Shown: positions 5,543 through 55,853 of the stretch, piece after piece
How positions within the stretch are numbered: the stretch's first letter is position 1
Layout: each line of letters opens with the position of its first letter
Assembly: GCA_958296245.1 (NCBI GenBank)
Contig: OY282458.1
Location: forward strand, 2,298,197-2,362,196
Origin: an uncultured Dehalococcoidia bacterium
GTDB lineage: Bacteria; Chloroflexota; Dehalococcoidia; Lucifugimonadales; G958296245
Direction: 5' to 3'
Length of the DNA: 64,000 nucleotides
Translations under genes and position numbers: made by a program
The notes under the pieces: generated by a model
What the model saw: only the letters and a program-made list of their open reading frames with translations
What the model was told of the DNA's origin: nothing
The model's database searches: none

Positions 5543-5617
5543 GGCTTTCGTTCTCCTGTCATCTCTATAAATTTTTGACGGGAAGCGGACAGGGCCTCAC
5601 GCTCCCGCCAGCCCCGC

Positions 5618-16911: not shown

Positions 16912-16912
16912 C

Positions 16913-20306: not shown

Positions 20307-20315
20307 CTCAGCTGG

Positions 20316-21194: not shown

Positions 21195-21307
21195 GGTCAT
21201 TCCTCCTGTGCGGATGCCCCTTCCCCATAAGCCTACTCCGATACATCCCATACTGTCAACTTGGCTGCGTGTTGACTTATTAGCATGGCACGGGTTAGAC
21301 TCATTTT

Positions 21308-24056: not shown

Positions 24057-24105
24057 AGATGGTCGAGATAGAGGTTGCGCTGCCCCAGGCGGCAACGTGG
24101 GGCTG

Positions 24106-25332
24106 ATGGCTGGTAAGACGCAAGTACCGGAGGGCTGGCAGTTAGTACAGCTGGGGGGTGTAGCGGAAGTGGTGATGGGGCAGTCACCGCCTAGTACAAC
24201 TGTGTTCGATTGGGACGACCAACATAGCAGCAATACCGGGCTGCCGTTCATCCAAGGCAATGCAGAGTTTAACGACAGATTCCCGCAGCCAGTGAAATGG
24301 TGCATCGAACCTCTTAAGATAGCAAGACAAGGCGACGCCTTGATCAGTGTTCGTGCACCAGTGGGCGAAACCAATCGCGCCAATTGCCTGCTTGCCATCG
24401 GACGTGGCCTCGCCGCGATACGGTTCATCGTTGCGGATTCATCCTTTGGCTGGCACATCCTCAACCATGCAAAGCAGTCCTTTGAGCGTGTGACCCAGGG
24501 GAGTACATTCAAGGCAATTGGCGGCAAGGAAGTCCGCTCTCTTCCTATCCTCCTCCCGCCCATGGCAGAGCAGCGGGCCATTGCCGCCGTGCTGGACTCC
24601 ATCGACGAGGCCATCGAGGGCGCCGAGGCCGTCATCGCCGCCGCCGAGCGCCTGCGCGACGCCCTGCTCCACGAACTGCTAACCCGCGGCATCCCCGGCC
24701 GGCACACCGAATGGCGGGACGCGCCGGGCGTCGGCACCATACCGGCAGACTGGGAGGTGGCGCGGCTGGGAGACGTGGCGGAGGTCAATCGTGATAGCTG
24801 GGATCCGGTCGAAGGTTCACCAATCCTCTATTTGGACTTGACTGCGGTCGTTGCTCCGGGGATATTGTCCTCTCCGAAGGAGGTCGCCGCGAAGGATGCT
24901 CCCAGCCGCGCCCGTCGCCAAGTGCAGTCGGGAGACGTCCTCGTGAGCACGGTCCGGCCTTATCTCAGAGGCTTCGCCCGCGTTCGCCATGCACCGGATA
25001 ATTTGGTTGCTTCAACCGGGTTTGCTGTGCTCACTCCGTCGGGTGGCGTCAACGGCTCGTATGTCTACCATCACGTTATGACACCGGGGTTCGCTCGCCA
25101 CCTCGAAGGAGCGATGACAGGTCAGGCATATCCGGCAGTCCGTCCCGACGATGTTGCCTCCTACCGGTTTGGACTCCCGCCCCTGCCGGAGCAGCAGGCC
25201 ATCGCCGCAACGCTGGATGGCGTGGACGAGGCGATTGAAGGCAACAGGGTGGAGCGGGATAGGCTTCAACTACTGAAGGCGTCGGCGTCGGACGCGCTGC
25301 TGACGGGGCGGGTACGGGTGGGGCGGGCTTGA
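24106..25332 (+). CDS. hsdS: Type I restriction specificity subunit HsdS
   Basis: From the ATG at 24106 the product has 408 residues and two target-recognition domains, each followed by a conserved long helix. The first half ends in LLPPMAEQRAIAAVLDSID, and the second in LPPLPEQQAIAATLDGVD. It determines the bipartite DNA sequence recognised by the M and R subunits. The last 34 bp (from 25288) are found again, slightly changed, at 26304-26336. An upstream GTG (24046) would add 20 poorly conserved residues and overlap DUF2442. Confidence 0.92.
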   Translation: MAGKTQVPEGWQLVQLGGVAEVVMGQSPPSTTVFDWDDQHSSNTGLPFIQGNAEFNDRFPQPVKWCIEPLKIARQGDALISVRAPVGETNRANCLLAIGRGLAAIRFIVADSSFGWHILNHAKQSFERVTQGSTFKAIGGKEVRSLPILLPPMAEQRAIAAVLDSIDEAIEGAEAVIAAAERLRDALLHELLTRGIPGRHTEWRDAPGVGTIPADWEVARLGDVAEVNRDSWDPVEGSPILYLDLTAVVAPGILSSPKEVAAKDAPSRARRQVQSGDVLVSTVRPYLRGFARVRHAPDNLVASTGFAVLTPSGGVNGSYVYHHVMTPGFARHLEGAMTGQAYPAVRPDDVASYRFGLPPLPEQQAIAATLDGVDEAIEGNRVERDRLQLLKASASDALLTGRVRVGRA

Positions 25333-25370
25333 TGGTATGATTCGTTCCTATCGGTTAGGGGGCCGACCGC

Positions 25371-26153
25371 ATGGCAGATGGACTGACGTTCGTTATCAAC
25401 CCGGCGGCTGAGCATGCGCCCATCGACTTGCTGGAAAAATCGTTGGTCGACATCAGGCGACTGCTCCGTCACGTGGATGAAGCCATCTACGGAGCCAGCG
25501 CTCAGACCCAATGGATGGTGCGCCAGTTGAGATCCAGCGCTCCCACCATAACCCTTCAACCCGAGCGCGGCAACGGACTGGCTGTCGAAGCGGTGGGCGA
25601 TGGAGTGCGCGTTATTACCGCTGGAACTGACGAGCCCCCGCAATACTTCACCGAGCAGGCGCTCGAAGACCTCAAGAAGATGAGGCGGCTGTTCAGCGGC
25701 AAGGCAAGCGCCAAGTCTATCTACGTCCTGACGAACGGCGAGCGAAGCGCCACCATTGAAAAGGATATCTCGGATAAGGTGAGCCGAATTCTTACCGCCG
25801 GTTACCACAACCTGGGATCGCTGGAGGGAAAGCTGGACGCGATCAACGTCCACGGCCCTCCTACGGTCACGATCTGGGACAGGGTTACTGACGCGCCCGT
25901 CCGCTGCCGCCTTCCGAAAGGCGAAGAGTGGATAGCTCAGGCAAAGGGCTTGCTCCAAAAGAGAGTCCTGGTTGCGGGCAAGGTCCACTACTTCGTCAAC
26001 GGCGCTCCACGGTCGATTCTCGAAGTGACGCATCTGGCGGACGCCAGCCCTGATCCGAGTCTGCCGCGCGCAGAATTCGGCTCCATACCCGATAAGCGAG
26101 TGCTCGAGGTGGGCGCGGCGGAATGGCTGAAGTCGGTCAGAGGGGTGAGCTAG
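25371..26153 (+). CDS. Unknown 260-residue protein paired with a PIN-domain fragment
   Basis: I do not recognise a named family. The N-terminal half is helical and charged (IDLLEKSLVDIRRLLRHVDE), and the C-terminal third is beta-rich (LGSLEGKLDAINVHGPP ... KRVLVAGKVHYFVNGAP). The protein at 26391-27248 has the same plan: an N-terminal L-x-x-L-x-x-x-L-x-x-V helix, then a strand with G-x-L-x-x-(I/V)-D, then V-x-V-x-G before the last strands. Both precede a PIN gene, so a large antitoxin-like role is likely. It lies 38 nt after hsdS and 10 nt before the PIN fragment. Confidence 0.7.
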   Translation: MADGLTFVINPAAEHAPIDLLEKSLVDIRRLLRHVDEAIYGASAQTQWMVRQLRSSAPTITLQPERGNGLAVEAVGDGVRVITAGTDEPPQYFTEQALEDLKKMRRLFSGKASAKSIYVLTNGERSATIEKDISDKVSRILTAGYHNLGSLEGKLDAINVHGPPTVTIWDRVTDAPVRCRLPKGEEWIAQAKGLLQKRVLVAGKVHYFVNGAPRSILEVTHLADASPDPSLPRAEFGSIPDKRVLEVGAAEWLKSVRGVS

Positions 26154-26163
26154 GGGAATAGAC

Positions 26164-26319
26164 ATGCCCACCCCGCGCCGTCTCTGGGACTCATGCACCA
26201 TCATAGACTACCTCGCAGGCAGTCCAGAGGTGGCCGAGACGTGCTCGCAAATCATAGAGCAGGCCGAACGTGGAGGACTCTCTATTGTCGTATCGGCAAT
26301 GGCTCGGACGCGCTGCTGA
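26164..26319 (+). pseudogene. PIN-domain (VapC-like) toxin, 3' truncated
   Basis: The 51-residue frame begins like a PIN ribonuclease (RRLWDSCTIIDYLAG with the first acidic residue) and continues to VVSAMA. It then runs into a copy of the hsdS 3' end, where a TGA stops it. The remaining acidic residues of the active site are missing, so it cannot be active. The breakpoint is exactly where the hsdS-like sequence begins (26304). Confidence 0.75.
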
Positions 26320-26336
26320 CGGGCGGGTGCGGGCGG
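26304..26336 (+). repeat. Copy of the hsdS 3' end
   Basis: This 33-bp stretch matches 25288-25321, the last codons of hsdS, with one gap and two mismatches (shared core TCGGACGCGCTGCTGACGGG). It truncates the PIN gene on its left and precedes the second large-protein/PIN cassette on its right. It marks a recombination joint between cassettes. Confidence 0.8.
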
Positions 26337-26390
26337 CAGTATAAGCTATGAGGCTATTGCAACACCATTTCGACGCAGAGGGAGGAGGGC

Positions 26391-27248
26391 ATGATGACGA
26401 AGCAATTGCATCTGATATTTAACGGACCCAATATCAGGGAAGAAGGCGTTTCACTGGATGACCTTCAGAAGACCTTACGGCATATGCAGACCACCGTGCG
26501 GCTTATGGTAAGCCACCTCGCAGGCTACACTAAGCAAGGCCGCCCGAGCTGGTTGCAAAGGGAAAGCAACCTCCGGTTGATGGGAACTTCGCCGGGCTCA
26601 TTGGTTGCCGAACTAGGTTTGGCTCCGTCTGATGGATATAACCTAATGAAAGGTTACGGACAACGGGCGATTGACCATATAATTGGATCGGGATCAGAAA
26701 ACGCCCGTTCTTTGCCTGAAAACGTTGCCGATGAGTTGTTTCGCATCGGCACAGACCTATCGCCTGAAATTACCCTTGTACAGCTGGTCGATCCGCTTAG
26801 CGGCCGTCAAGTAGAGTTCCGACGCAGGGAGGCTACGGCTATGCGAGTGGCGAAAAATCCACTATCGGATCGTACGACGGAGAAGGCTTTGCTATATGGC
26901 TGGCTTAAAGCAGTGGACTGGGAAGAGCGGACTGCCAAACTTAGCCGATACCAAGCCAGGCCCGTCAACCTGCTGTTCACCGCCGATTATGACCGGCAAA
27001 TGCTCCGAACGGCAATGCAGCACGTGGAGGTTAGAGGCCAAGGCCGCTTCGATAGCTCCGACCAATGGTATTCGGTTCAAGTGGAAGAAATAAGAGCCAC
27101 TCGATCTTGGAATGAGCCTTTTGACATGGATGCGTTCTTGAATGCCCCCAACCCTAAGATATTCCGCAGTGATGAGGTTGTTAGAGCTGATGAACCGTTT
27201 GACGTTGATGAGTTTATCCGTGTCATCAATGAAGGCAGGGATGTCTGA
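26391..27248 (+). CDS. Unknown 285-residue protein paired with a PIN-domain toxin
   Basis: No named family is recognised. Layout: N-terminal helix VSLDDLQKTLRHMQTTVRL (about 20-40), a GTSPGSLVAEL strand (about 65-75), a middle helical part, and a beta-rich C-terminal domain (about 170-240: LLYGWLKAVDWEE, VNLLFTADYD, VEVRGQG). The last 45 residues repeat the phrase EPFDMDAFL / EPFDVDEFI, which may be the toxin-binding tail. GGAGGAGGG precedes the ATG pair. The stop overlaps the PIN start by 1 nt. Base composition is noticeably more AT-rich than in the hsd genes, suggesting recent acquisition. Confidence 0.75.
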   Translation: MMTKQLHLIFNGPNIREEGVSLDDLQKTLRHMQTTVRLMVSHLAGYTKQGRPSWLQRESNLRLMGTSPGSLVAELGLAPSDGYNLMKGYGQRAIDHIIGSGSENARSLPENVADELFRIGTDLSPEITLVQLVDPLSGRQVEFRRREATAMRVAKNPLSDRTTEKALLYGWLKAVDWEERTAKLSRYQARPVNLLFTADYDRQMLRTAMQHVEVRGQGRFDSSDQWYSVQVEEIRATRSWNEPFDMDAFLNAPNPKIFRSDEVVRADEPFDVDEFIRVINEGRDV

Positions 27249-27655
27249 TGATTGATGATTCCCCTCTTGTTGTTCTTGACACCAACGTGGTTTCAATGAT
27301 TTACAACCGGGACCAGCGTGCTTCCTTCTACGAACATCGCATTAAAGGACTGCGCACGGTCATATCATTCCAAACCCTAGAAGAAATATGGTGTTGGCCA
27401 CTCAGGAGTGGATGGGGTGAGCGACGACAAAATCAGCTAATGGAGTACATCTCGCAATACCAAGTCATTTGGCCCGATCGGGCGTTAGTGGAAATATCCG
27501 CCCGATTACGCCTGGAAAGGGAGCGCTCCGGAAAGCGACTGACTACAGCCGACGCCTGGATTGCCGCTACTGCTATTCTACTGAACTGCCCCCTCGCATC
27601 TCACGACCGCGACTTTTCCGGCATCCAAAACCTGGAAGTAATCAAATCTCCATGA
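27248..27655 (+). CDS. PIN-domain ribonuclease toxin (VapC-like)
   Basis: The 135-residue protein has the PIN acidic triad pattern: LDTNVV near the N terminus, LTTADAWIAATAI (about 97-110) and SHDRDFSGI near the end. PIN toxins cut tRNA or rRNA when freed from their antitoxin. Its partner is the large protein immediately upstream, not a short VapB. The stop codon TGA overlaps an ATG that opens a copy of the hsdR 5' end, exactly as the true hsdR start overlaps the HEPN gene. Confidence 0.85.
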   Translation: MIDDSPLVVLDTNVVSMIYNRDQRASFYEHRIKGLRTVISFQTLEEIWCWPLRSGWGERRQNQLMEYISQYQVIWPDRALVEISARLRLERERSGKRLTTADAWIAATAILLNCPLASHDRDFSGIQNLEVIKSP

Positions 27656-27715
27656 CCACACCCGCCAGGCTGAACGAATACAACCACGCCGAGGAGCCGG
27701 CGCGCGTGCTGCTGG
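27650..27715 (+). repeat. Copy A of the hsdR 5' end
   Basis: About 66 bp nearly identical to the first codons of hsdR (28727-28793), beginning with the ATG and encoding TTPARLNEYNHAEEPARVLL. It has no continuation as hsdR and passes directly into the DUF433 cassette. It is therefore a relic of a former hsdR start. Confidence 0.85.
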
Positions 27716-27788
27716 ATGCTCTGTCAGGATGCACACCGGGCGCCGGGATAAGTACGATGAGTATATTGAATCAGGGGAAGGTGAGCGC

Positions 27789-28091
27789 ATGGCGAACTGG
27801 GAGACGTGCTACGCGGTCGAGCGCCACCCGGACAAGGTCAGCGGCGCTTGGGTGTTTCGTGAAACGCGAGTGCCCGTATCGGCCCTCTTCGAGAACCTCA
27901 AAGACGGCGCATCGGTGGCGCAATTCCTGGAGTGGTTCCCTGGCGTCGGCGAATGGAAGGTGAAGGCTGTCCTGGACCAAGAGTCCAGCAAGCCCATGAC
28001 CACACCCGCCAGGCTGAACGAGCACAACCACGCCGAGGAGCCGGCCCGCGTGCTGCTGGAGAGTTGGAGTGAATCCCATGAACAGGGATGA
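27789..28091 (+). CDS. DUF433 protein (antitoxin-like HTH) with a read-through tail
   Basis: Residues 1-68 form a DUF433 domain (CYAVERHPDKVSGAWVFR, then VPVSALFENLKDGASVAQFL). The domain is a small HTH found in VapB-like and other antitoxins. The frame has no stop at the expected end and continues in frame through copy B of the hsdR 5' end, adding about 32 residues. No toxin gene is next to it, so it is an orphan antitoxin or half of a lost pair. A start further upstream (27729) is possible. Confidence 0.72.
   Translation: MANWETCYAVERHPDKVSGAWVFRETRVPVSALFENLKDGASVAQFLEWFPGVGEWKVKAVLDQESSKPMTTPARLNEHNHAEEPARVLLESWSESHEQG
27994..28064 (+). repeat. Copy B of the hsdR 5' end
   Basis: About 70 bp matching copy A and the true hsdR start, with a few substitutions (Glu-His in place of Glu-Tyr). 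It lies between the DUF433 and MNT cassettes and is translated in frame as the tail of the DUF433 protein. Confidence 0.85.
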
Positions 28092-28368
28092 AGTCCTCAA
28101 TGCGCTCCGAGCGCACAAGCCGACGCTTGCGGAGCGTTTCGGCGTAACCCGACTCGCCCTGTACGGCTCCTTTGCCCGGGACCAGGCGACTCCCGATAGC
28201 GACGTCGATGTTCTCGTGGAGTTTGATACCCCGCCGGACTGGCGCCGCTACTTCGGCGCCCAATTCTACTTGGAAGACCTGCTTGGGCGAACGGTGGACC
28301 TGGCAACGGACGGGGAAGTGCGCGCTGAGATACGCCCCTACGTGGAACGGGATTCGATCTATGTATAA
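28078..28368 (+). CDS. MNT-type nucleotidyltransferase antitoxin
   Basis: A 96-residue minimal nucleotidyltransferase with ALYGSFARDQATPDSDVDVL (Gly-Ser plus Asp-x-Asp metal ligands) and a later Asp in VDLATDGE. In MntA/HepT systems this enzyme neutralises the HEPN toxin, by AMP transfer in the studied cases. The GTG at 28069 is an alternative start. The stop overlaps the HEPN start (28361). Confidence 0.9.
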   Translation: MNRDEVLNALRAHKPTLAERFGVTRLALYGSFARDQATPDSDVDVLVEFDTPPDWRRYFGAQFYLEDLLGRTVDLATDGEVRAEIRPYVERDSIYV

Positions 28369-28732
28369 CGCCGAGCATGAGGGCCGCGATTGGCGCTTCT
28401 ATATTCAGGACATGCTGGAGTTCGGCGAGAAGGTATTGTCCTATACAGAGGCGCTAGGCCCCGACGCGTTCATCGCTGACAGCCTCATCTATGATGCCAC
28501 GCTGCGCAATATCGAGCTTATAGGCGAGGCTGCCACCCATGTCCCAACCGACGTGCGCGAGTCTCACCAGGACATCCCGTGGCGCGCGATTGTAGGAGTC
28601 CGCAACCGCCTGGCACATGGCTATCTGTCCATCAGTGACAGCGTAATCTGGTCTTTAATTCAAGACGCAATCCCGGAACTACTGCCCAGACTGCGGCGTC
28701 TGTTGGACGCTGCCGAGCAGGAGCGCCCATGA
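28361..28732 (+). CDS. HEPN-domain ribonuclease toxin (HepT-like)
   Basis: A 123-residue all-helical protein with the HEPN catalytic motif R-x4-H in GVRNRLAHGY (about 85-95). It is encoded directly after and overlapping the MNT gene, the standard HepT/MntA order. HEPN toxins act as RNases. Its stop TGA (28730-28732) overlaps the hsdR ATG, so hsdR expression may depend on translation through this toxin gene. Confidence 0.9.
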   Translation: MYNAEHEGRDWRFYIQDMLEFGEKVLSYTEALGPDAFIADSLIYDATLRNIELIGEAATHVPTDVRESHQDIPWRAIVGVRNRLAHGYLSISDSVIWSLIQDAIPELLPRLRRLLDAAEQERP

Positions 28733-31700
28733 CCACACCCGCCAAGCTCAACGAATACAACCACGCCGAGGAGCCGGCCCGGTCGTTGCTAGAGAGGATG
28801 GGATGGACTTACGCATCCCGTGAGGCTCTGGCGGCGGAGCGAGGAGACGAGCGCGAGATCCTGCTGAAGGGGCGGCTGCGGCGGGCGCTGCTGCGGCTGA
28901 ACGAGTGGATGACGGAGGAGCAGGCTGAGCGGGTCGTCTTCGAGCTGGAGCATATGGACGCCACCGGCATGGCCCGCAACCAGGCCGTCCACGAGTACCT
29001 GACCTACGGGATGCCCCTGACGGTGGACGGCCCCAAGGGCCGGGACTCGCGCGTCGTCCGCTTCTTCGACTTCGACCACCCTGAGGGCGGCCTGAACGAG
29101 TTCGTGGTAACGACCCAGTTCCGGGTCCGGCGCGGCAACGAGCGTGGAGGCGCGGAGGACGACGAGCGCATGGTCATTCCCGACCTGGCGCTGTTCGTCA
29201 ACGGCATCCCCTTGGTGGTGATGGAGGCGAAGTCGCCGTCGCTGCTGGACGTGTGGAAGTCGCAGGCGGTGCGCCAACTGCGCCGCTACCAGGAGGCGGG
29301 GCCGGAGTGGCACGGGGCAGGCGCGCCGGAGCTGTTCCACTACAACCTGCTGTGCGTGGCCCACTGCGGGGCCGCCGCGGCATACGCCGCGCTGGGCGCG
29401 CCGGAGAACGCCTACGTCGAGTGGAAGTCTACGCTGCCCTACTCCGAGGACGAGGCGCGGCGGCGATTCGGGGTCGAACCCCAGGGGCAGGCGCAGCTCA
29501 TCGTCGGTCTGCTGTCTCCAGCGACGCTGCTGGACGTCCTGCGCGACTACGTGGTCTACGAGCCGGAGCGGGGGCGTCTGGTGAAGAAGCTGCCGCGCTA
29601 CCAGCAACACCGCGCCGTGGGATCGGCGCTGCGGCGCATCCTGAGCGGCCGCAGGCCGGAGGAGCGGGGCGGCGTGGTCTGGCACACGCAGGGGTCGGGC
29701 AAGTCGTTGACGATGTTGTGGCTGGCGACGAAGGTGCGCCGGGAGCCGCGGCTGGGCAACGCGACTATCGTCGTAGTGACAGACCGAAAGCAGTTGGACC
29801 TCCAGATAGCCAACACCTTCAAGCGCTGCGGCTTCCCCGCGCCGGAGCAGGCGTCCAGCACACGCGGCCTGCGCCGTCTGCTCACTGCCGGCACGGGCCG
29901 GACGGTGATGACGACCATCCAGAAGTTCGAGGAGGCGCTGACGGTCCCGGGGGGCGAGTTGGACGCGCTCAACGCCTCGGAGAATGTCATCGTCATGGTG
30001 GATGAGGCGCACCGCACCCAGTACGGCATTCTCGGCGGGCGCATGTCCCAGGCGCTGCCGAACGCCGTTCTCGTCGGCTTCACCGGCACGCCCATAGACA
30101 AGGGCTTCCGGCACAGCACCATGCGGCGCTTCGGCCCCCTCATCGACTCCTACACGATTCCGCAGTCGGTGGCCGACGGCGCGACGGCGCCCATCTTCTA
30201 CGAGGCGCGGCTGCCCGAGCTGGCCGTCGAGGGGCCGGAGACGCTGGACAGGCTGTTCGAGGCGATGTTCGGCGACCAGCCCGAAGGTGTGCGGGAGCGG
30301 ATTCGACGCCGCTATGCCAACAAGGAGACGGTGGCCGAGGCACAGCGGCGCATCGAGATGATCGCCCTGGACGTGGCCGAGCACTTCAAGGCGGTGGTGC
30401 GCCCCAACGGGTTCAAGGCTCAGGTGGTGGCCCCCAGCCGCGCCGCCGCGCTGCGCTACGCCGAGCGCCTGAACAGCTTCGGCCTGCGCGCCTACCCCAT
30501 CATCACGGCCGCGCCCAACGATGGCCCTGAGTTCAAGGTTGCCCGCGAGCTTGACCAGGGGCAGGTCGTCAACGCCTTCGTCGATCCCGAAGGGGAGCCG
30601 GAGGTGCTGGTCGTGGTGGACATGCTGCTGACCGGCTTCGACGCCCCGGTGGAGCAGGTCCTCTACCTTGACAGGCCGCTGCAGGAGCACGGGCTGCTCC
30701 AGGCCATCGCCCGCGTCAACCGCCGCTTCTCCCACGAGCGGGACGGGGTGGTCACGGAGAAGACGCACGGTCTGGTGATGGACTATCACGGCATCTCGCG
30801 GGACTTGGAGGATGCGCTCTCGACCTTCGAGTGGCCGGACGTTCAGGACACGATGTGCGAGCTTGACGATGACCCGGCGCCGGTAGTCGAGGCGGCCGCC
30901 GTGCAGGCGGAGTCCCACTTCAAGGGCCGCGACCTGGGCGACACGTGGGCCTGCGTCAGCGTCTTTGCGCCGGACGCCGAGACCGAGAGCAACTTCAAGG
31001 CCGACCTGTTCGAGCGGTTCAACGCGGACTACCGGCAATTCTCGCGGCTCATGGACCGCTTCCTGCCCGACCCGGGGGCGCTTCCCTACGTGGACCGTCT
31101 TGCCAGGCTCACGGAGATACGGGCCTACGTCCGGGCGCAGTTCCTCCGCGAGGACGCCGACGCGGACTGGACGGAGATCGGGGCCAAGGTGAAGAGGCTG
31201 GTGGACGAGCGCATCGGCGCACAGGTGCGGGAGATGATGAAGCCGGTCTCCATCCTGGACCAGGACTTCGAGCAGAAGATCGCCGCGCTGCCCCACGACG
31301 AGTCGCGGGCTTCGATTATGGAACATGCCATTCGCGCCCAGATTCACGAGCGGCTGGCCGAGAACCCGGTTTTCTACGAACGGCTATCGCAGCGGCTGGA
31401 GCGCATCATCGCAGACCTGCGCGACCGGCTCATCGAGACCGCCGAGGCGTGCCGGCGCATGGCGGCCCTGCGGCATCAGGCCCGGAGCGAGGCCGATATC
31501 GCCGCCGCGCAAGGCCTGTCGCCGGTGTCCTTCGCCATCTACGAGCTGCTCGACGGCCATTCGGAGGAGCCAATCCCCACTACGGCCGCGCGCGAAGAGC
31601 GGCGCCCGTACAGGACCGAGTTCGACGAGGAGACGAAGCGTGTGGCGCGGAAGGTCGAGAGCGTAGTCAACAGCCACAACGCCGTCGTAGATTGGCAGTC

Positions 31701-31836
31701 CAACTTGGAGGTCCAACGGCAGATGCGCCGCGACGTCAAACGGGAGCTCAGGCCCACGGGCGACTACACGGAAGAGCAGTTGGAAGAGTTGGCGAACCGT
31801 ATCGTCGAGCTGGCCCGCCTAAGGAGCGCACGGTGA
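28729..31836 (+). CDS. hsdR: Type I restriction enzyme motor/nuclease subunit HsdR
   Basis: A 1035-residue protein. The N-terminal PD-(D/E)XK nuclease has the Asp in MVIPDLALF (about 149) and the Glu/Lys in VVMEAKS (about 166-168). Walker A is HTQGSGKSL (about 322-328) and the DEAH box is MVDEAHRTQ (about 425). The C-terminal helical region binds M. It translocates and cuts DNA lacking the S-directed methylation. Length and motifs are normal. Its first about 65 bp occur twice more upstream at 27650 and 27994. Confidence 0.95.
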   Translation: MTTPAKLNEYNHAEEPARSLLERMGWTYASREALAAERGDEREILLKGRLRRALLRLNEWMTEEQAERVVFELEHMDATGMARNQAVHEYLTYGMPLTVDGPKGRDSRVVRFFDFDHPEGGLNEFVVTTQFRVRRGNERGGAEDDERMVIPDLALFVNGIPLVVMEAKSPSLLDVWKSQAVRQLRRYQEAGPEWHGAGAPELFHYNLLCVAHCGAAAAYAALGAPENAYVEWKSTLPYSEDEARRRFGVEPQGQAQLIVGLLSPATLLDVLRDYVVYEPERGRLVKKLPRYQQHRAVGSALRRILSGRRPEERGGVVWHTQGSGKSLTMLWLATKVRREPRLGNATIVVVTDRKQLDLQIANTFKRCGFPAPEQASSTRGLRRLLTAGTGRTVMTTIQKFEEALTVPGGELDALNASENVIVMVDEAHRTQYGILGGRMSQALPNAVLVGFTGTPIDKGFRHSTMRRFGPLIDSYTIPQSVADGATAPIFYEARLPELAVEGPETLDRLFEAMFGDQPEGVRERIRRRYANKETVAEAQRRIEMIALDVAEHFKAVVRPNGFKAQVVAPSRAAALRYAERLNSFGLRAYPIITAAPNDGPEFKVARELDQGQVVNAFVDPEGEPEVLVVVDMLLTGFDAPVEQVLYLDRPLQEHGLLQAIARVNRRFSHERDGVVTEKTHGLVMDYHGISRDLEDALSTFEWPDVQDTMCELDDDPAPVVEAAAVQAESHFKGRDLGDTWACVSVFAPDAETESNFKADLFERFNADYRQFSRLMDRFLPDPGALPYVDRLARLTEIRAYVRAQFLREDADADWTEIGAKVKRLVDERIGAQVREMMKPVSILDQDFEQKIAALPHDESRASIMEHAIRAQIHERLAENPVFYERLSQRLERIIADLRDRLIETAEACRRMAALRHQARSEADIAAAQGLSPVSFAIYELLDGHSEEPIPTTAAREERRPYRTEFDEETKRVARKVESVVNSHNAVVDWQSNLEVQRQMRRDVKRELRPTGDYTEEQLEELANRIVELARLRSAR

Positions 31837-39854: not shown

Positions 39855-41462
39855 TCAGTCGTCGAAGGGCGCCGGCATCATGCCGACCGGGACCTCGATC
39901 AGTGAGGGGGCCTCGATGGACAGGGCCTCCCGCAGCGCTCTTTCCAGTTCTTCCGGCCCCTGAGCCAAGACGCCGCGGGCGCCGTAGGCCTGGGCCAGCT
40001 TGACGAAGTCGGGGTTGTGGAGGTCCGAACCGATGACGCGCCCCCCGAACTTCCGGGTCTGGTCGCGCTTCACGTTACCGTAAGCGTTATCGTTGAAGAC
40101 TACTACCGTTGCGTTTATTCCGTACTGTACCGCGGTGGCAAGTTCCTGGGAGTTGTAGAGGAAGCCGCCGTCACCGGAGACCGCGACCACAGCCCTTTCA
40201 GGCCGGGCCACCTTTGCCCCCAAGGCGGTTGGGTAGGCGTATCCAAGGTTTCCGAAATAGGAGGAGGTTATGTAGGTCCTCGGCTCGTATACCTGGAAAT
40301 GGGTGCGGCAGTAGTACCCTATCTGCGTTACTCCCTCGATCAGTATGCCGTCGTCGGGCATTGCGCTTCTTATCGCCTCTACGAAGCGCCCCTGAGGCTG
40401 CACGTGCTTATTGGGGTCGTACCGGCTTGCCCTCGCCTTTTCAATCTCGTCCCTGCGGCTGGGCCGAGGCGGGCCGGAGCGCGCCAACTGCGCGTGGAGC
40501 GCCTCGAGTGTGAGCCGAGCGTCTCCATGCAGTGCGAACGTATCAGGGTATACCCGCCCGATCTCGTCGGGGTCGACGTCGATCTGGATGATCCTGGGGC
40601 TCTTCTGCAGCCTGACCCACCTGCCCATCCTAGTGCCCACCGCCAGCACGACGTCCGCGTCATCCACAACGTCGTCCAGGGCGTCGGGGCGGTAGTTAGG
40701 GACTCCCAGGGATAGCGGGTGCCTGCCAGATATGATGCCCTTGCCCTCCGCAGTCGTTACCACCGGCGCTTGGAGGAGCTCGGCGACCTTCACCACCACC
40801 TCGGAGGCCTCGGAGAGAATGGCCCCACCGCCGGCCCAGATGACCGGGCTCCTAGCAGCCGCCAGCGCCGCCGCTGCCTCGCGGACGCTTTCGCCGCTGG
40901 CCGGCGGACGGCGGTAGACTTCGGGCTCGTGGAGATCCAGGTCGGCCTCCTCCGCCAAGGCGTCGGGAGGCGCCTCGATCTCCACGGGGCGCGGTCTGCC
41001 GGTGGCCATCTGCCGGAAGGCCTCGTGGACGGCGTCCGGCATCTCCGGGGCGTGGAGGACGCGCGAGGCCCACTTGGTCACGGTCTTGATGGCGTCTATC
41101 TGGTCGTTGACCTCATGGAGGGCGCCCGTATCCTTTCCGATTTGGTCTCTTTCGACCTGACCGGATATCAGGAGCATTGGGGACGAGGCCGAATAGGCGG
41201 TGCCCACCCCTGCCGAGGCGTTGAGCAACCCGGGTCCGGGTACGACCAACGCCGTACCGAATCCGCCGCCGGCCCGGGAGTAGCCGTCAGCCATGTAGGC
41301 CGATGCCTGCTCGTGACGGTTCGATATGAACCTGATCCCCGGCTCGTCGTAGAAGGCGTCCATGGCATGATAGAGCTGTACCCCGGGCACGCCGAAGACA
41401 ACCCTCACACCTTCCCGGTAGAGGGACTTGACCAGCGCCTGTCCTCCCGTCATTCGCGGCAT
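39855..41462 (-). CDS. Thiamine-pyrophosphate enzyme (acetolactate synthase-like)
   Basis: A 535-residue three-domain TPP enzyme. The N-terminal PYR domain has the catalytic Glu in NRHEQASAYMADGYSR. A central FAD/nucleotide-type domain contains VIWAGGGAI. The C-terminal PP domain has the cofactor motif GDGGFLYN...N (about 430-460). It is close to IlvB, but no small subunit IlvN and no other ilv gene is near, so a decarboxylase or lyase on another 2-keto acid is as likely. GAGGAG lies 10 nt before the ATG, and TAGAAT just upstream could be the -10 box. Confidence 0.85.
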   Translation of the reverse strand: MPRMTGGQALVKSLYREGVRVVFGVPGVQLYHAMDAFYDEPGIRFISNRHEQASAYMADGYSRAGGGFGTALVVPGPGLLNASAGVGTAYSASSPMLLISGQVERDQIGKDTGALHEVNDQIDAIKTVTKWASRVLHAPEMPDAVHEAFRQMATGRPRPVEIEAPPDALAEEADLDLHEPEVYRRPPASGESVREAAAALAAARSPVIWAGGGAILSEASEVVVKVAELLQAPVVTTAEGKGIISGRHPLSLGVPNYRPDALDDVVDDADVVLAVGTRMGRWVRLQKSPRIIQIDVDPDEIGRVYPDTFALHGDARLTLEALHAQLARSGPPRPSRRDEIEKARASRYDPNKHVQPQGRFVEAIRSAMPDDGILIEGVTQIGYYCRTHFQVYEPRTYITSSYFGNLGYAYPTALGAKVARPERAVVAVSGDGGFLYNSQELATAVQYGINATVVVFNDNAYGNVKRDQTRKFGGRVIGSDLHNPDFVKLAQAYGARGVLAQGPEELERALREALSIEAPSLIEVPVGMMPAPFDD

Positions 41463-41647: not shown

Positions 41648-43345
41648 CTACCGGACGGAGAGCAGGGACCGGACGTACTCGGCGGCTTCGCCGCTCGGGA
41701 CCAGCGTAGCTTCGCCGCCTGTGCGCCTGCGCGCCTCCACCACGTCCCTCTTGATGTTCCGAGGGCTGACGACCAGCCGGATCGGCAGTCCCAGCAGGTC
41801 GGCGTCGTTGAACTTCACGCCCACCGACTCCTCGCGGTCGTCATAGAGCACCTCGACGCCGGCGTCAACGAGGTCGCCGTAGAGGGCATCGGCTGCGCCG
41901 GCGACGTCCTCGCGCTCGACGTTGAGAGCAGTCAGCCACACCTTGTAGGGCGCGATGGATTCGGGCAGCACCATGCCTGCTTCGTCGTTGGTCTGCTCGA
42001 CCGCCGCCGCCAGCAGACGCCCGACGCCGATGCCGTAGCAGCCCATGACGACGGGTCTCAGGGCGTCCGCATGGTCAGGGAACGTGCAGTCGAACGCCTC
42101 GCTGTACCGAGTACCCAGCTTGAAGATGTGGCCTACTTCGATGCCGCGGCGGGCCGACAGGACGCCCCCGCATACGCGGCATCCGTAACCGTCTTGTACC
42201 AAGGCGATATCGGTAACTACGTCGGCGTCGAAGTCGCGCGGGAAGTTGGCATTCCGCAGGTGGAAGCCGTCCTTATTAGATCCCATGACGAAGTTGGACC
42301 CCAGTCGGAGCGAGTCGTCCGCGATTATCGCGGCGTCGGCTCCTATGGGAGAAGCTGAGCCGACCGTCAACCCCGCGGCGGCGACCTCCTGGGGCGCGGC
42401 AAACCTGAGTTGGGCCCCGCCCAGCGCGTTCTTCAGCTTGACCTCGTTAACCTCCAGATCGCCCCTGACGGCAGCGAATACCATCTTGCCGTCGGCCACG
42501 TACAGCACGGCCTTTATGGTCTTCCAGGCGGGTATATCGAGGTAACTGGCTAGGCGCTCGATGGTCTTAACGCCCGGCGTGGCGACTTCCTCCAGGGGGA
42601 GAGGCTCCTCAGGGGGGGTGGCCGTCTTTGCAAAGGCAGCCCTCTCGACGTTGGCGGCGTAGCCGCAGGAGTCGCATAGGACGATGGTGTCCTCGCCCGC
42701 GCTTGCCGGAGCGATGAACTCGTGAGAGTGCTTGCCTCCTATCGCGCCGCTGTCCGCCTCCACCATAATCGTGCTCAGGCCGCATCGCTCATAGATGCGC
42801 CCGTATGCCCGCATCATTGCTTGGTAGCTTTGGTCCAGGCCCTCATCGTCGGCATCGAAGCTGTAGGCGTCCTTCATGTCGAACTCGCGGACCCGTATCA
42901 GGCCGCCTCGGGGCCTGGGCTCGTCGCGGAACTTGGTCTGTATCTGATACAGGATCAGCGGAAGGTCGCGGTAGCTGTTGACGTTAGCCTTGACGTGGGA
43001 CGTCAGCACCTCTTCATGGGTCGGCGCCATGACCATGGGCCGCTCCCGGCGGTCCTGCACGCGGAACATGTCGCGGCCAAGCACCTCGCTTCGGCCGGAG
43101 GTCTCCCATATCTCCAGGGGCTGGAGGACGGGCAGCCGGAGTTCCTGGGCGCCGGCGGCGTCCATCTCCTCGCGGATGATCTGCTCGATCTTGCGGAGGG
43201 AGCGCCAGGCCAGGGGGAGGTAGCTGTAGACTCCCGAAGCGACTTGGGAGATAAGCCCCGCCCTGAGCATCAAGCGGTGGCTGGCGATCTCCGCCTCCGC
43301 AGGCTCGTCCCTCAGCGTCTTGCCGAACAGGTTGGATACCCGCAT
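41648..43345 (-). CDS. proS: Prolyl-tRNA synthetase
   Basis: The ATG at 43345 starts MRVSNLFGKTLRD and gives 565 residues, the normal size of bacterial-type ProRS; longer readings add unrelated sequence. Class II motifs are present (LPVLQPLEIWETSGR, then FRDEPRPRGGLIRVREF). A YbaK-type editing insert and a C-terminal anticodon-binding domain follow (GCYGIGVGRLLAA before it). It charges tRNA-Pro. It ends the long minus-strand housekeeping run. Confidence 0.95.
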   Translation of the reverse strand: MRVSNLFGKTLRDEPAEAEIASHRLMLRAGLISQVASGVYSYLPLAWRSLRKIEQIIREEMDAAGAQELRLPVLQPLEIWETSGRSEVLGRDMFRVQDRRERPMVMAPTHEEVLTSHVKANVNSYRDLPLILYQIQTKFRDEPRPRGGLIRVREFDMKDAYSFDADDEGLDQSYQAMMRAYGRIYERCGLSTIMVEADSGAIGGKHSHEFIAPASAGEDTIVLCDSCGYAANVERAAFAKTATPPEEPLPLEEVATPGVKTIERLASYLDIPAWKTIKAVLYVADGKMVFAAVRGDLEVNEVKLKNALGGAQLRFAAPQEVAAAGLTVGSASPIGADAAIIADDSLRLGSNFVMGSNKDGFHLRNANFPRDFDADVVTDIALVQDGYGCRVCGGVLSARRGIEVGHIFKLGTRYSEAFDCTFPDHADALRPVVMGCYGIGVGRLLAAAVEQTNDEAGMVLPESIAPYKVWLTALNVEREDVAGAADALYGDLVDAGVEVLYDDREESVGVKFNDADLLGLPIRLVVSPRNIKRDVVEARRRTGGEATLVPSGEAAEYVRSLLSVR

Positions 43346-43353
43346 GGGTTGAT

Positions 43354-44493
43354 TCAGTCCTCGCCGATCATAGCTTCCGCCTTGCCTACCTCGTCCATGA
43401 GCGCCGTCAACATGTCGGCCTCGCCGACGATGCGCGCCTTCCGCCCCTTGCGGAATATGATGGCCCGGCCCACCCCCGCCGCGATCCCCACGTCCGCGTC
43501 CTTGGCTTCCCCAGGGCCGTTGACCTCGCATCCCATGACGGCGACCTTGACGGGGGTCTTGATCCTGCTCAGCAGGGCGTCGACTTCATTGGAGAGCTTG
43601 ACCACGTCCACGTCCGCCCTTCCGCAGCTCGGGCAGGCGACCAGAACGGCGCCCTCCTTGCGAAGCTCCAAGGCCTTGAGTATCTCGAATCCGGTGCTGA
43701 CCTCTTCCCTAGGGTCGTCACTCAGTGAGACCCTTATCGTATCACCGATGCCATCGTACAGGAGCGCGCCGATGCCGATGGCGCTCCGTATGCTGCCCGA
43801 CTTGGCGGTGCCCGCCTCGGTGATGCCGAGGTGGAACGGGTAGGGTACGAGCTCGGCCATGCGCCGGTAAGACTCGATCGTGGTTTCGATGTCGAACGCC
43901 TTGAGCGAAATCTTTATCAGGTCGAAGTCCAAGTCCTCGAGGATGCCTATCTCCCACAACCCCGTGGCGACCATGTGGTCTACCACGGAGTATTCGCCCT
44001 CTTCACCTGTCCCCTTGGGGAGCGCGTTGACGCCGTCGGTGTGTCTGGACAAGCCCCTGGTGGCTCCGATACCCCCGACCGGCGGGAGGCTGCCGAAATT
44101 GACCCCGATGCGGATGGGCGCCTCCCGCGCCTTCGCCTCCCTTACGATCGTCCGCACCTTCCGGGCGTCCCGGATGTTGCCGGGGTTCAACCGCAGGCAG
44201 TCTACCCCGCTCTCGAGCGCTTCCAGTGCGAGCTCGTAGTGGAAATGAATGTCGGCGACCAATGGGATCCTTATCTGCTTCTTGATCTCCGCAAGGGCTT
44301 TTGCAGCCTCCACGTCTGGAACCGCAGCGCGGACGATCTCACAACCGGCCTCCTCGAGGCCGTGTATCTGCTTCACGGTGGCCGGGACGTCCCGCGTGTC
44401 AGTCTTGGTCATAGACTGAACGGTAATGGGGGCATCTCCGCCCACCTTGGCATCGCCAATTTGGAGCTGCTTGGTTACGCGGCGCTTCATCAT
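43354..44493 (-). CDS. ispG: 4-hydroxy-3-methylbut-2-enyl diphosphate synthase (IspG)
   Basis: A 379-residue protein with the GcpE TIM barrel (VQSMTKTDTRDV, LVADIHFHYELALEA) and the 4Fe-4S domain (CPSCGRADVDV and GCEVNGPGE). It is the penultimate step of the MEP isoprenoid pathway. With dxr, uppS and cdsA nearby, it forms a lipid-precursor cluster. It lies 8 bp before proS. Confidence 0.96.
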   Translation of the reverse strand: MMKRRVTKQLQIGDAKVGGDAPITVQSMTKTDTRDVPATVKQIHGLEEAGCEIVRAAVPDVEAAKALAEIKKQIRIPLVADIHFHYELALEALESGVDCLRLNPGNIRDARKVRTIVREAKAREAPIRIGVNFGSLPPVGGIGATRGLSRHTDGVNALPKGTGEEGEYSVVDHMVATGLWEIGILEDLDFDLIKISLKAFDIETTIESYRRMAELVPYPFHLGITEAGTAKSGSIRSAIGIGALLYDGIGDTIRVSLSDDPREEVSTGFEILKALELRKEGAVLVACPSCGRADVDVVKLSNEVDALLSRIKTPVKVAVMGCEVNGPGEAKDADVGIAAGVGRAIIFRKGRKARIVGEADMLTALMDEVGKAEAMIGED

Positions 44494-44593
44494 CGTAAAT
44501 CCTTCTCCGCGGCCTGGCCGGCGGGGGAGCCGGGCGGGTGCAGGGGGATTCTCGCTTACTGCTGCCCCTACCGCAAGCGGAGGGCGCTCTCAG

Positions 44594-45802
44594 CTAGGGC
44601 AAGATGCTGTCGCCTCGAAGGATTCGCGCCACGTCGCCGTAGCTCAGCACGAAGATGAGCATGAGGACAACTGCGAATCCCACCAGATGGACCAGCCCCT
44701 CCCGCTCAGGGGATATGCGCTTGCCGCGCCGCACCCACTCTATGAACACGAACAGCAGCCGCCCCCCATCGAGGGCGGGAATGGGCAGGATGTTCACGAT
44801 GCCCAGGACGACGCTGAGCAGGGCCGTCAGTTGGAAGACGAAGGCGAAGCCCAACTCGTCCACCACCTCTCCAGTGGCTTGGGCGATGCCTATGGGGCCG
44901 GCGAACCCAGGGTTGGATCTAGTGGATAATCCCTGGGCGATGCCGTCCCATTGCATCTCAAGGAAGCTCCAGATCGTCTCTACCGACATGGGCACCGCGT
45001 TCCATATCGGCTCCGTCGCCGAGCCAATCTTGGGATTGACCAAGCCGATCCGCACCCCGATAGCCTTCTGACGCAGGACGTCGCCGGCGCCAAGGCTCGC
45101 GTCGTACCTGCGCGCGTCCATCAAGGAGATCTGGGCGGCCGGGTCCTCCACAGTCTCGACCACTACGAGGGATGGAGGGTCCGGGTCGGGCACCACCTGC
45201 AGGGTCTCGAAGACGGCGTATTCGGGGGACTGGCTGATGATGAGGCCCAGCGGCGAAGTTCGCCTGACGCTCAGCTCGACCGGCTCGCCGAGCCGGCTTT
45301 GGACGCGGTCGATCAGCTCCGAGGGGGTCATGATCCGCTGCCCGTCTACTTGTAGGATCGCGTCTCCGGGCTGCAGGCCGCCCCTGTGCGCCGGCGAGCC
45401 GGGCACAACGGCCGTGACCATCACCTCGCCGCCGACCAAGGTCTGGTGCGGCAGCAGGAACAGGATGGTGAATATCACCACGGGAACGATCAGGTTCACC
45501 ACGGAGCCGGCCATCAGGATGGCCGCCCGCTTGGCGGCGCTCAACCGCGCGAAGCTCTGCGGGTGGGTCGGATCGTCCTCTCCAACCATGCGAACGAACC
45601 CGCCCAGCGGGAGCCAATAAAGGGAATACTCGGTGCCGCGGAACGAGAACTTCAACAGCCGCGGCGGAATGGGGAGGCCGAAGGCGAACTCCGTCACCAT
45701 CACCCCGAACGCCTTGGCCGTGACGAAGTGGCCCAATTCGTGAACGAAGATTAGGAACCCGAGAACAGGGACGATCCACAGCCAGGACGGCAGGTCGATC
45801 AC
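44594..45802 (-). CDS. rseP: Site-2 protease, RseP/M50 family
   Basis: The 402-residue membrane protease has the zinc motif FVHELGHF (residues 21-25) in its first helix, a central PDZ-like region (about 130-200), and the second metal-binding segment NILPIPALDGGRLLF near residue 335. It cleaves membrane-bound anti-sigma factors or remnant signal peptides in the plane of the membrane. It overlaps nothing and lies 3 bp after dxr. Confidence 0.92.
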   Translation of the reverse strand: MIDLPSWLWIVPVLGFLIFVHELGHFVTAKAFGVMVTEFAFGLPIPPRLLKFSFRGTEYSLYWLPLGGFVRMVGEDDPTHPQSFARLSAAKRAAILMAGSVVNLIVPVVIFTILFLLPHQTLVGGEVMVTAVVPGSPAHRGGLQPGDAILQVDGQRIMTPSELIDRVQSRLGEPVELSVRRTSPLGLIISQSPEYAVFETLQVVPDPDPPSLVVVETVEDPAAQISLMDARRYDASLGAGDVLRQKAIGVRIGLVNPKIGSATEPIWNAVPMSVETIWSFLEMQWDGIAQGLSTRSNPGFAGPIGIAQATGEVVDELGFAFVFQLTALLSVVLGIVNILPIPALDGGRLLFVFIEWVRRGKRISPEREGLVHLVGFAVVLMLIFVLSYGDVARILRGDSILP

Positions 45803-45805
45803 GGT

Positions 45806-46936
45806 CTATACCCCAGCGACTTCACGAGCTCGCGCCCTGCCCCACGCCGCCGCCGAGATGATCTCCCGGGCGGAGGGGTCGTGGACCGGCGCATGCCCCT
45901 TCAAGGCATCCCTGATCACCGGGGCGATGTCCAGGAAGCCGATGCGGCGGTTCAGGAACAGATCTACCGCAGCGTCATCAGCCCCGCATAGAGCGGCGGG
46001 CCACGTCTCGCCGCGTACGGCCACCTCCATTGCAAGCTCGAAGCAGGGGTAGCGCTCGGCGTCCAGGGGCTTGAACGTAAGCTGCCCGGCTGACACGGGG
46101 TCGAATCTCTCCATCCTATCGTTGGGGAGCCGCTTCGGATAGAGCAGGGCGTACTGTATAGGCAGCCTCATGTCAGGCACGCTCAGATGGGCCTTGACGG
46201 CGCCGTCTACGAACTCGACCATGGAGTGGATGACGCTCTGAGGGTGGATCACGACCTCGATCTTCTCCCAAGGCACCCCGAACATGTGGTGCGCCTCGAT
46301 CACCTCGAACGCCTTATTCATGAGTGTCGCAGAGTCTACGGTGATCTTTGGCCCCATCTTCCAGGTCGGATGATCCAACGCCTGCTCCGGGGTCATGTCG
46401 GCCAGGTCGCTCGGGTCGCTGTCGCGAAAGGCGCCGCCCGACGCAGTGATAATCAGCTTCGAAATACCCTCTTCCTCACCGGCGAGGGCCTGCCAAATGG
46501 CGTTTGGCTCGCTGTCGAGCGGCAACACCATGACCCCGCGGTCGCGCGCGAGCCGCATCAGCATCCCGCCCGCCATCACGATAGATTCCTTGTTCGCCAG
46601 GGCGATGTCCTTGCCGGCTTCGATAGCGGCAATGGTGGCGCCAAGGGCCACGTCGCCCACGGTGGCGGTCACCACGAGGTCGACGTCCGGGTCCCGGACC
46701 ATGTCCTCCATCCGGCACTCCGCGCAGCCGTTGGAGGCGAGGAATGCCTTCTCGGAGGCCGTGCCCTGGCACGACACGAGCTTGGGTTTGAACTCGCGGA
46801 CCTGAGATTCCAGGAGGTCTATGTTCCTGCGGGCCGCCAGCCCAACAACCCTGAAACTGCTTCTAAACGACCTGACGACGTCCAGGGTTTGCGTACCTAC
46901 CGAGCCCGTCGAACCCAGCACGGCGAGGCCCTTCAT
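45806..46936 (-). CDS. dxr: 1-deoxy-D-xylulose 5-phosphate reductoisomerase
   Basis: The NADPH-binding start is VLGSTGSVGTQTLDVV. Further signatures are ANKESIVMAGG and the active-site GGAFRD. The ATG at 46936 overlaps the cdsA stop (ATGA) and gives 376 residues, the usual length. An ATG four codons earlier is possible. It is the first committed step of the MEP pathway. Confidence 0.95.
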   Translation of the reverse strand: MKGLAVLGSTGSVGTQTLDVVRSFRSSFRVVGLAARRNIDLLESQVREFKPKLVSCQGTASEKAFLASNGCAECRMEDMVRDPDVDLVVTATVGDVALGATIAAIEAGKDIALANKESIVMAGGMLMRLARDRGVMVLPLDSEPNAIWQALAGEEEGISKLIITASGGAFRDSDPSDLADMTPEQALDHPTWKMGPKITVDSATLMNKAFEVIEAHHMFGVPWEKIEVVIHPQSVIHSMVEFVDGAVKAHLSVPDMRLPIQYALLYPKRLPNDRMERFDPVSAGQLTFKPLDAERYPCFELAMEVAVRGETWPAALCGADDAAVDLFLNRRIGFLDIAPVIRDALKGHAPVHDPSAREIISAAAWGRARAREVAGV

Positions 46937-47757
46937 TGAACCGTCCATGCGGCGAAATGATACACGAGCGGTAGGTTGAACACAATTGAATCCAACCGGT
47001 CGAGCACGCCGCCGTGACCCGGCACGAGCGCGCCGGAGTCCTTGACCCCGCACGCGCGCTTCACCATCGATTCGGCGAGGTCGCCCAGTACTGCGACCAT
47101 CCCCACGACAACGCCAAGGCCGGCGGCCAAGGCGGGATGGAGATCGAGGCCGACGGCCGCAGCCAGAATCGCGCAAGCGGCGCCAGCCGCAGCCAGCCCC
47201 GCTGCCGTTCCCTCCCACGTCTTGCCCGGGCTGATCCGGGGAGCCATACGCCTGCTGCCGAATCGCCGCCCGACGAAGAAGGCCGCCGTATCAGCGGTGA
47301 ACACAGCGCCCAAGAGTATCACGACCCACAGAAAGCCATCGTCTAGGATTCGCAGCAGCGGCGCGTACGCAAGGAGGATGCCGGGGTACAACGCCGCCCC
47401 GGACGTCATGGCCCAATCCGCCGCGGCCTCTCTCGGTTGCGACCGCCATAGCACCGCCGGCAGGGCTGCGATCAAACCGGCTACGGACACCACCGCGAGA
47501 GCGGCCGAGGCTCGGATCGCAGCGTCCTCTTTCCCACCCGCTGCGGCGGTGTATGCCGCGACCACCAGGGCAGCCGACCATGCCGCGGCAAAGAGCCCGG
47601 CGGGGTTGCGGCCGCGGCGGCGAGCCATAGCGGCCATCTCCAATGCACCGATGGAAGCCGCCGCAGAGACGAGGGCCAGGAACCACAAGCCGCCCGCCCA
47701 CGTGACGATGAGGAGTAACGGGATCCCCACCGCGGCGCTCGTTATGCGGCTGGCCAC
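46933..47757 (-). CDS. cdsA: Phosphatidate cytidylyltransferase
   Basis: A GTG start at 47757 (VASRITSAAVGIPLLL) gives 274 residues and a normal first membrane helix; the open frame upstream is not protein-like. About seven hydrophobic helices follow. The CDP-diglyceride synthetase signature includes SRRMAPRISPGKTWEGTAAG and, at the end, KDSGALVPGHGGVLDRLDS. It makes CDP-diacylglycerol for phospholipids at the inner membrane. Confidence 0.93.
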   Translation of the reverse strand: MASRITSAAVGIPLLLIVTWAGGLWFLALVSAAASIGALEMAAMARRRGRNPAGLFAAAWSAALVVAAYTAAAGGKEDAAIRASAALAVVSVAGLIAALPAVLWRSQPREAAADWAMTSGAALYPGILLAYAPLLRILDDGFLWVVILLGAVFTADTAAFFVGRRFGSRRMAPRISPGKTWEGTAAGLAAAGAACAILAAAVGLDLHPALAAGLGVVVGMVAVLGDLAESMVKRACGVKDSGALVPGHGGVLDRLDSIVFNLPLVYHFAAWTVQ

Positions 47758-54206: not shown

Positions 54207-55853
54207 CTAGGGAGGGCCCAACTGGCTCCTGAAGTAAGCCTCGACCCTCTCGACGTACTCGTCGGGGCGCGCGTCGAACACGTCGCTGTGATCGACGTCC
54301 GGTACGATCCAGAGCTTGCTGCCGGCATACGCCGCATCCAGCAGCCTCTCGGCGTGCTCTACGGATATCCGGCCGTCCGCCCCGCCATGAATGATCAGAA
54401 TGGGGTAGCCGAGGGAGGCCGCCGCCCTCTCCGGTACGACCCTGCCGACGTCGATCCCGTACAGGACTCGGGCCACCACCTTCATGCCGGGAACGAACAC
54501 CGGCGTCATCCATGCCGGGAAGCTCGTAGCCCGCGCGGCCTCTGTAGCGATCATGTCCGATACGTCGGCGAATGCACTGTCCGCGGCCACAGCCCTGATG
54601 CCGGGTTCCTCCGCCGCGCCCAGCAGGGCGATGGCGGCGCCCATGGAGAAGCCGACCACCCCCACACGCCCCGGGGGCGCGCCGCGCTCCACGAGGAAGT
54701 CGTAGGCGCCCAGCAGGTCTTCCCTCTCGTAGAAGCCTCCGGAGACCTGATCGCCTCCCGATTCGCCATGACCCCGCAGGTCGAACAGCAGGACGTCAAA
54801 GCCGCCGGCGGACAGCGAGCGCGCCAGCTCGAGGGCGGCCCTGTTCGCTCGGTTCGCGCTCAGCCCGTGGACTACTATGACCGCCGGCCCGTCGCCCACC
54901 GCGTCGATCAACCAGCCGCTCAGGCTGACGCCGCCCCCTCTGGAAGTGAACTCAACCTCCTCGTAGGCGAGGCCGAACTCCGTCGGGCTCAACTCCGGCG
55001 GGTTCCGTTCCGCTCTGGTAACACCGGACGCCATCAGGTAGGAGACATACCCGTAGGCAAGGAAGGTCAGAATGAAGACCGCTAAGATGCCCCAGCGCAG
55101 CACCCGGGCCCGCGCCGAGGAACGGCCCTGAGACTCTCGGCCTCCCAGCTTGGCCAACCAGATGCCTATTTCGTACATCACCACGATGGGCAACGCCACT
55201 AGAGCTTGATTAAAGGGGTCGAACGTCGGCGTAATCAAGGCGCCCATGATGAAAGCCACTACGATCGCATATCTGCGGTTCTTGGCGAGGAAGCTGGACG
55301 TAAGCACGCCGATCTTGGACAGGAAGTAGGCTAGGATGGGCATCTCGAATATGAGGCCCATCCAGAACAGCAACGTCAGCATGAGGTTGGTATAGTTGCC
55401 GATGCGTATGTACGGGTCGGCAACCTCGCTTCCGAAAGTTTGGAGGAAGTTCACCGCGGGCGGGAACAGCACGCGGTGACCAAAGGCGGCGCCGATCAGG
55501 AACGAAAGGAGCGACGCAGGTAGAAGGACGTAGAGATACCTCTTTTCGGCGCGGTTCAGGCCCGGGGCAACGAACATCACTATCTGGTAGAGCACGAACG
55601 GCAATGACAGAAATAGGCCCGCCAGCAGCGACACCTTCATCGCGATGCTGATGAACTCTGTCAGCTCGGTGTATATAGGCTTCCCGGCAGGGGTATCCGC
55701 AAAGCCTTGCGCAGGACGCATCAGCAGTATGAGGATCTGCCTATGGAACGCGAAGGCGATGCCCGTACACGCCAGCACGGACACCGCCGACCACGTGATG
55801 CGCCGGCGCAACTCGACGAGGTGGCCCCGTATTGGTTGCTGTCTGTCCTTCAC
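54207..55853 (-). CDS. TatC translocase fused to an alpha/beta hydrolase
   Basis: One uninterrupted 548-residue frame. Residues 1 to about 250 are TatC: six hydrophobic helices, the N-terminal HLVELRRRI motif that contacts twin-arginine signals, and the FxxE segment LIFEMPIL. A seventh helix (about 268-286) leads to an alpha/beta hydrolase domain (about 305-548) with oxyanion region VVHGLSANR, nucleophile elbow VVGFSMGAA (Ser about 401), an Asp in GGADGRIS and a His in VDHSDVF. If TatC has its normal topology with both ends cytoplasmic, the extra helix would place the hydrolase outside the cytoplasm; this is inference. No TatA is adjacent. Confidence 0.9.
   Translation of the reverse strand: MKDRQQPIRGHLVELRRRITWSAVSVLACTGIAFAFHRQILILLMRPAQGFADTPAGKPIYTELTEFISIAMKVSLLAGLFLSLPFVLYQIVMFVAPGLNRAEKRYLYVLLPASLLSFLIGAAFGHRVLFPPAVNFLQTFGSEVADPYIRIGNYTNLMLTLLFWMGLIFEMPILAYFLSKIGVLTSSFLAKNRRYAIVVAFIMGALITPTFDPFNQALVALPIVVMYEIGIWLAKLGGRESQGRSSARARVLRWGILAVFILTFLAYGYVSYLMASGVTRAERNPPELSPTEFGLAYEEVEFTSRGGGVSLSGWLIDAVGDGPAVIVVHGLSANRANRAALELARSLSAGGFDVLLFDLRGHGESGGDQVSGGFYEREDLLGAYDFLVERGAPPGRVGVVGFSMGAAIALLGAAEEPGIRAVAADSAFADVSDMIATEAARATSFPAWMTPVFVPGMKVVARVLYGIDVGRVVPERAAASLGYPILIIHGGADGRISVEHAERLLDAAYAGSKLWIVPDVDHSDVFDARPDEYVERVEAYFRSQLGPP

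Follow-up and report, generated by a model that had tools for sequence, protein, structure and literature searches.

A single open reading frame joins a complete TatC to an anchored, esterase-like hydrolase in one Dehalococcoidia genome

TatC proteins (PF00902, TIGR00945; structures 4b4a and 4hts) have six helices and a cytoplasmic C-terminus that is also the end of the protein. No natural TatC fusion was found in a literature search whose coverage excluded most subscription journals. In the laboratory, the TatC of E. coli can be replaced by TatC-mCherry, a fusion with the added domain at the C-terminus (PMC3732296), so TatC can tolerate such an addition, as we propose for the protein described here. 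That construct differs from ours in being artificial, in having no extra helix, and in keeping mCherry in the cytoplasm (PMC3732296). For the second half of the protein, the nearest solved fold is that of the Pyrococcus furiosus esterase Pf2001 (5g59), which carries no TatC; its recombinant form Pf2001-delta60 has esterase/lipase activity (PMC2967836).

The window analysed here, a stretch of 64,000 nucleotides, belongs to the genome of an uncultured Dehalococcoidia bacterium, assembled as one contig of 2,685,284 bases and 98% complete. An open frame of 548 aa at 54207..55853 (-), with a GTG start at 55853 and a stop at 54207, encodes a TatC-hydrolase fusion, and both frame reading and profile matches placed the two domains in the same frame. 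The continuous frame running from TatC into the hydrolase in the preliminary description was borne out, as the 548 codons are uninterrupted by a stop. The fusion protein combines domains of two known families in a new way and was encountered once. A full-length AlphaFold model of the 548 aa had a mean pLDDT of 69.6, and most of the TatC part scored ~45-70, so the model is too poor to support claims about packing.

The TatC domain (residues 11-222; 55188..55823 (-)) matched Pfam PF00902 at 7.1e-61 and 206 bits against a cut-off of 25.1, and NCBIfam tatC (TIGR00945) at 188.3 bits against a cut-off of 132.7. With positions 2-208 of 208 in the Pfam profile covered, the earlier claim of a complete TatC holds. 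The last of its six helices ends near residue 236, its closest PDB chains are the TatC structures 4b4a (4.2e-38), 4htt, and 4hts, and it is 69% identical to the stand-alone TatC of a relative (G516). Phe94, Glu103, Pro47, Asp212, and Gln216 are shared with known TatC proteins; in an alignment of 26 TatC sequences, Glu103, Pro47, Asp212, and Gln216 were invariant, and Phe94 and Glu170 were present in at least 90%. We take Glu103 and Phe94 to be the signal-peptide-binding residues, a role carried over from E. coli TatC. Stand-alone relatives end in a short tail after helix 6, whereas the fusion adds ~300 C-terminal residues, so that a seventh helix and a further domain follow the point at which a TatC should end. 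Nothing has been lost in this departure from the usual layout, only added: the first part qualifies as a TatC, but the protein as a whole is not a typical TatC. A search of the whole 2.69 Mb contig found the fused TatC to be the only TatC of the genome, and for that reason it should be functional. Two TatA/B-type genes lie together ~325 kb from the fusion ORF, in agreement with the earlier remark that no tatA is adjacent, and their presence elsewhere in the genome makes a Tat pathway plausible, with the fused TatC as its expected receptor. The TatC half would probably export as normal.

The alpha/beta hydrolase domain (residues 323-535; 54249..54887 (-)) matched the Pfam families Abhydrolase_1 (4.5e-17) and Hydrolase_4 (5.7e-17), and has both the GxSxG nucleophile elbow and the Ser-Asp-His triad of PF00561/PF12146 hydrolases. 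By alignment, the nucleophile within GFSMG is Ser403 (54645-54647 (-)) and the other members of the triad are Asp493 (54375-54377 (-)) and His522 (54288-54290 (-)); all three are identical in 34/34 aligned hydrolases, which upholds the full hydrolase with apparent Asp and His of the preliminary description. A structure model of residues 249-548 (pLDDT 86.8) adopted an alpha/beta hydrolase fold, for which Pf2001 was the nearest match (VIA-align Z 29.8, rmsd 3.0, 264 residues) at 26% identity, a value too low to assign a substrate. The same esterase, 5g59, was found with the hydrolase half in a PDB sequence search (2.8e-20). Given the Pf2001-like fold of the model and the retained triad, acyl-group cleavage or transfer outside the membrane is the expected activity of the hydrolase.

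The hydropathy profile of the fusion has the six helices of TatC and one more, helix 7, at residues 256-274 (55032..55088 (-); hydropathy 1.99 over 19 residues). The loop before this helix contains five K/R and one D/E, and the stretch after it has three basic and six acidic residues, a bias that by the positive-inside rule puts the loop in the cytoplasm and the hydrolase on the outer side. Hydropathy and charges together make it likely that, as predicted earlier, the TatC C-terminus lies inside, helix 7 crosses in-to-out, and the hydrolase is outside. Stand-alone hydrolases of relatives have a short basic stretch at the N-terminus followed by the same helix, for example MLVQRLRRWRIPLAAAVVVMSLLYGGVSVFLANSV in G342, and those of the same order (among them G563, G566, and G378) are 50-55% identical to the fused copy, N-terminal helix and triad included. 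Across the 34 aligned hydrolase sequences, Tyr267 within helix 7 is invariant, Ala275 is found in 32, and Thr279 and Arg283 are each found in 31. Because stand-alone relatives carry this homologous helix, sequence comparison identifies helix 7 as the native N-terminal signal anchor of the hydrolase, rather than the added device for exporting it that the preliminary description had proposed, and by the same comparison the hydrolase would already have been membrane-anchored and extracytoplasmic before the fusion. The end of TatC and the start of the anchor are both on the inside, so the join alters neither topology.

Searches for the fusion in other Chloroflexota, as suggested earlier, confirmed it in this genome and recovered it from no other genome searched. 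No second full-length fusion was found among the matches listed for 393 class genomes and 250 order genomes, and since these were listed best first, a second full-length match would rank at the top. Matches listed outside the source genome cover either residues ~1-250 (TatC) or ~230-548 (the hydrolase and its helix), never both. In 400 phylum genomes, no second close full-length copy was found at E 1e-90, a threshold at which a very diverged fusion could be missed; a plasmid collection held no record covering 80% of the fusion query, and a scan of GTDB contigs gave a single TatC relative, which is unfused. Other C-terminal TatC fusions among the long frames of relatives were considered and ruled out, as the extra length lies upstream and the C-terminal tails are no longer than 54 residues. 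With the hydrolase half as query at E 1e-30, matches were obtained in 105/247 order genomes, among which only that of the source genome sits in a TatC frame; the remaining 142/247 had no match at this threshold, so that Tat export in the order is independent of the hydrolase. On these sequence searches the fusion is private to one genome. Separate tatC and hydrolase genes, the pattern that the preliminary description associated with a missed stop or assembly error, were seen in all relatives examined. This does not prove an error, because a private fusion gives the same pattern and the source genome is the sole representative of its family among the genomes searched.

Both genes are in new surroundings here. 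The stand-alone anchored hydrolases of the order are encoded by separate genes, neighbours of proS in two families and differently placed elsewhere, and they are never joined to tatC. In at least five relatives, G378 and G407 of one family and G514, G515, and G516 of another, the hydrolase and proS genes are convergent, and ispG, rseP, and dxr follow proS. The window has the same proS-ispG-rseP-dxr block (41648-47218), with proS itself at 41648..43531 (-) (NCBIfam proline--tRNA ligase, 1e-218), and in the hydrolase's stead a thiamine-pyrophosphate enzyme gene (39855-41462) adjoins the block. The fused tatC adjoins ftsZ and aspS, an arrangement not found in the relatives examined; in eight relatives ftsZ is adjoined by ftsA, and neither tatC nor aspS lies within 1.5 kb, which offers no clue to the way tatC reached its present place. 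A simple move of the hydrolase out of the proS position is not supported by a small tree, which keeps the fused copy apart from the proS-side copies and groups it with a hydrolase of another family (L015) with support of 98/96; the fused copy may have moved from there or may be a different copy. The convergent pair of proS and anchored hydrolase is itself a conserved arrangement in two families of the order (L059, L060, L066, L069, L078).

The probable explanation, in our view, is that the two genes were recently fused in frame, probably through loss of a stop, and that the result is a working TatC to which an esterase-like domain is tethered on the outer side. Under this explanation, the gene for an anchored extracytoplasmic esterase-like hydrolase would have come to lie directly downstream of tatC, and a point change or short deletion would then have removed the tatC stop and joined the frames. 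The product would be one polypeptide in which the cytoplasmic TatC tail runs into the hydrolase anchor, which would cross in-to-out and leave the alpha/beta hydrolase outside the cytoplasm. The fused protein would serve as the sole TatC, working with the TatA/B-type proteins encoded elsewhere, and the hydrolase, tethered to TatC, would do what its stand-alone relatives do, acting outside the membrane on esters or acyl groups. By analogy with TatC-mCherry, the fused TatC can presumably tolerate its C-terminal domain. From the features of the two halves, we infer that the organism does carry the fusion and that both halves are active; the tethering to TatC is probably neutral and without special function. 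Most likely this is a private, possibly accidental fusion and not a new export device.

The junction itself bears on whether the two genes are truly joined. At residues 240-251 (55101..55136 (-)), the TatC tail passes straight into the N-terminal region of the hydrolase with no linker. Stand-alone TatCs end at ~238-269, mostly 249-255, and hydrolase homology starts at ~250, so the join sits where one protein stops and the other begins. Two adjacent and perhaps overlapping genes could look fused through a base-call error that removed the tatC stop, an alternative we judge unlikely. A single substitution at either CGA239 or CAG242 would make a stop and restore two genes, and a missed indel at the join would do the same, as the +1 frame reaches a TAG at the start of or within the hydrolase helix. 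Codon scores favour the fusion frame on either side of the join but dip weakly where the two halves meet, and this dip counts against a genuine fusion, as does its occurrence in one genome only; moreover, looking for odd fusions selects for errors of this kind. Against an error, the longest homopolymer at the join does not exceed four, and a separate hydrolase gene would have no good start, GTG codon 251 being the only in-frame start codon at the junction and poorly placed at some 37 nt after the nearest GGAGG. Gene integrity is also good (mean ORF 323 aa and coding fraction 0.86 over 404 kb), with a full-length single-frame relative at 83/94 places compared with relatives; the genome does contain a few apparent frame splits, possible at 4/94 compared places, of which two are in the mobile part of the window.

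Other features of the window concern mobile DNA and defence. Frames that look split at 4063-4566 and 5669-6610, together with a recombinase-like ORF recognised by eye (2974-4551), suggest that 2974-6727 is decayed mobile DNA at the edge of a defence island. At 10488-18250 (-), an 840-aa helicase-like protein gave a near full-length match to the candidate defence family PDC-S28 (8e-279). Beside it is a metallo-beta-lactamase-type ORF similar to RTasMBL and LmuA (13174-14199), and the group further holds an ORF with a weak REase_II match (14854-16911), a small ORF, and a methyltransferase-like ORF; the whole group may be one defence system. A CBASS-like pair at 19728-21251 (-) consists of an oligonucleotide cyclase (PADLOC 3e-109) and, directly downstream, a two-helix effector (5e-60). 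Type I restriction genes occupy 24046-31836 (+), with the specificity subunit at 24046-25332, the restriction subunit at 28729-31836, and further ORFs between them.

Processing of the product was also considered. Signal peptidase or another enzyme could cut the fused chain behind helix 7, so that a precursor yields TatC and a free hydrolase, much as the cytochrome b/c1 fusion (fbcH) of Bradyrhizobium is a cleaved precursor. The layout suits such a cut, with an in-to-out helix coming after a cytoplasmic C-terminus, and an A-x-G/S motif follows the helix at Ala275, the residue kept in 32/34 sequences, and Gly277, so that a cut here is conceivable. Signal peptidase I, however, usually cuts after alanine, and position 277 is alanine in only 1/34 sequences, while the conservation of Tyr267, Thr279, and Arg283 looks too high for a discarded signal peptide. 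We regard this polyprotein as improbable. A functional coupling, in which the hydrolase acts on Tat cargo or lipids near the translocon and the fusion was selected for it, is very improbable, since although both domains keep all conserved residues and the hydrolase domain would sit on the exit side, no relative is fused, none was seen with tatC and hydrolase side by side, and a hydrolase match at E 1e-30 is missing from 142/247 order genomes. With the join in one genome only, the esterase tied to the translocon as a function in the preliminary description was not sustained, and we give very little credence to the proposal that in this family TatC captured an extracytoplasmic acyl hydrolase acting on Tat cargo or lipids at the translocon exit.

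Either outcome leaves existing knowledge of Tat function unchanged. If the joined frame is an error, it shows clearly how two membrane-protein genes can pass for a new machine when the stop between them is missed. If instead the recent in-frame fusion is real, it would amount to a natural experiment showing that a C-terminal transmembrane helix plus an extracytoplasmic domain can be tolerated by TatC, with a bearing on the packing of TatC against TatA/TatB and against other copies of itself.
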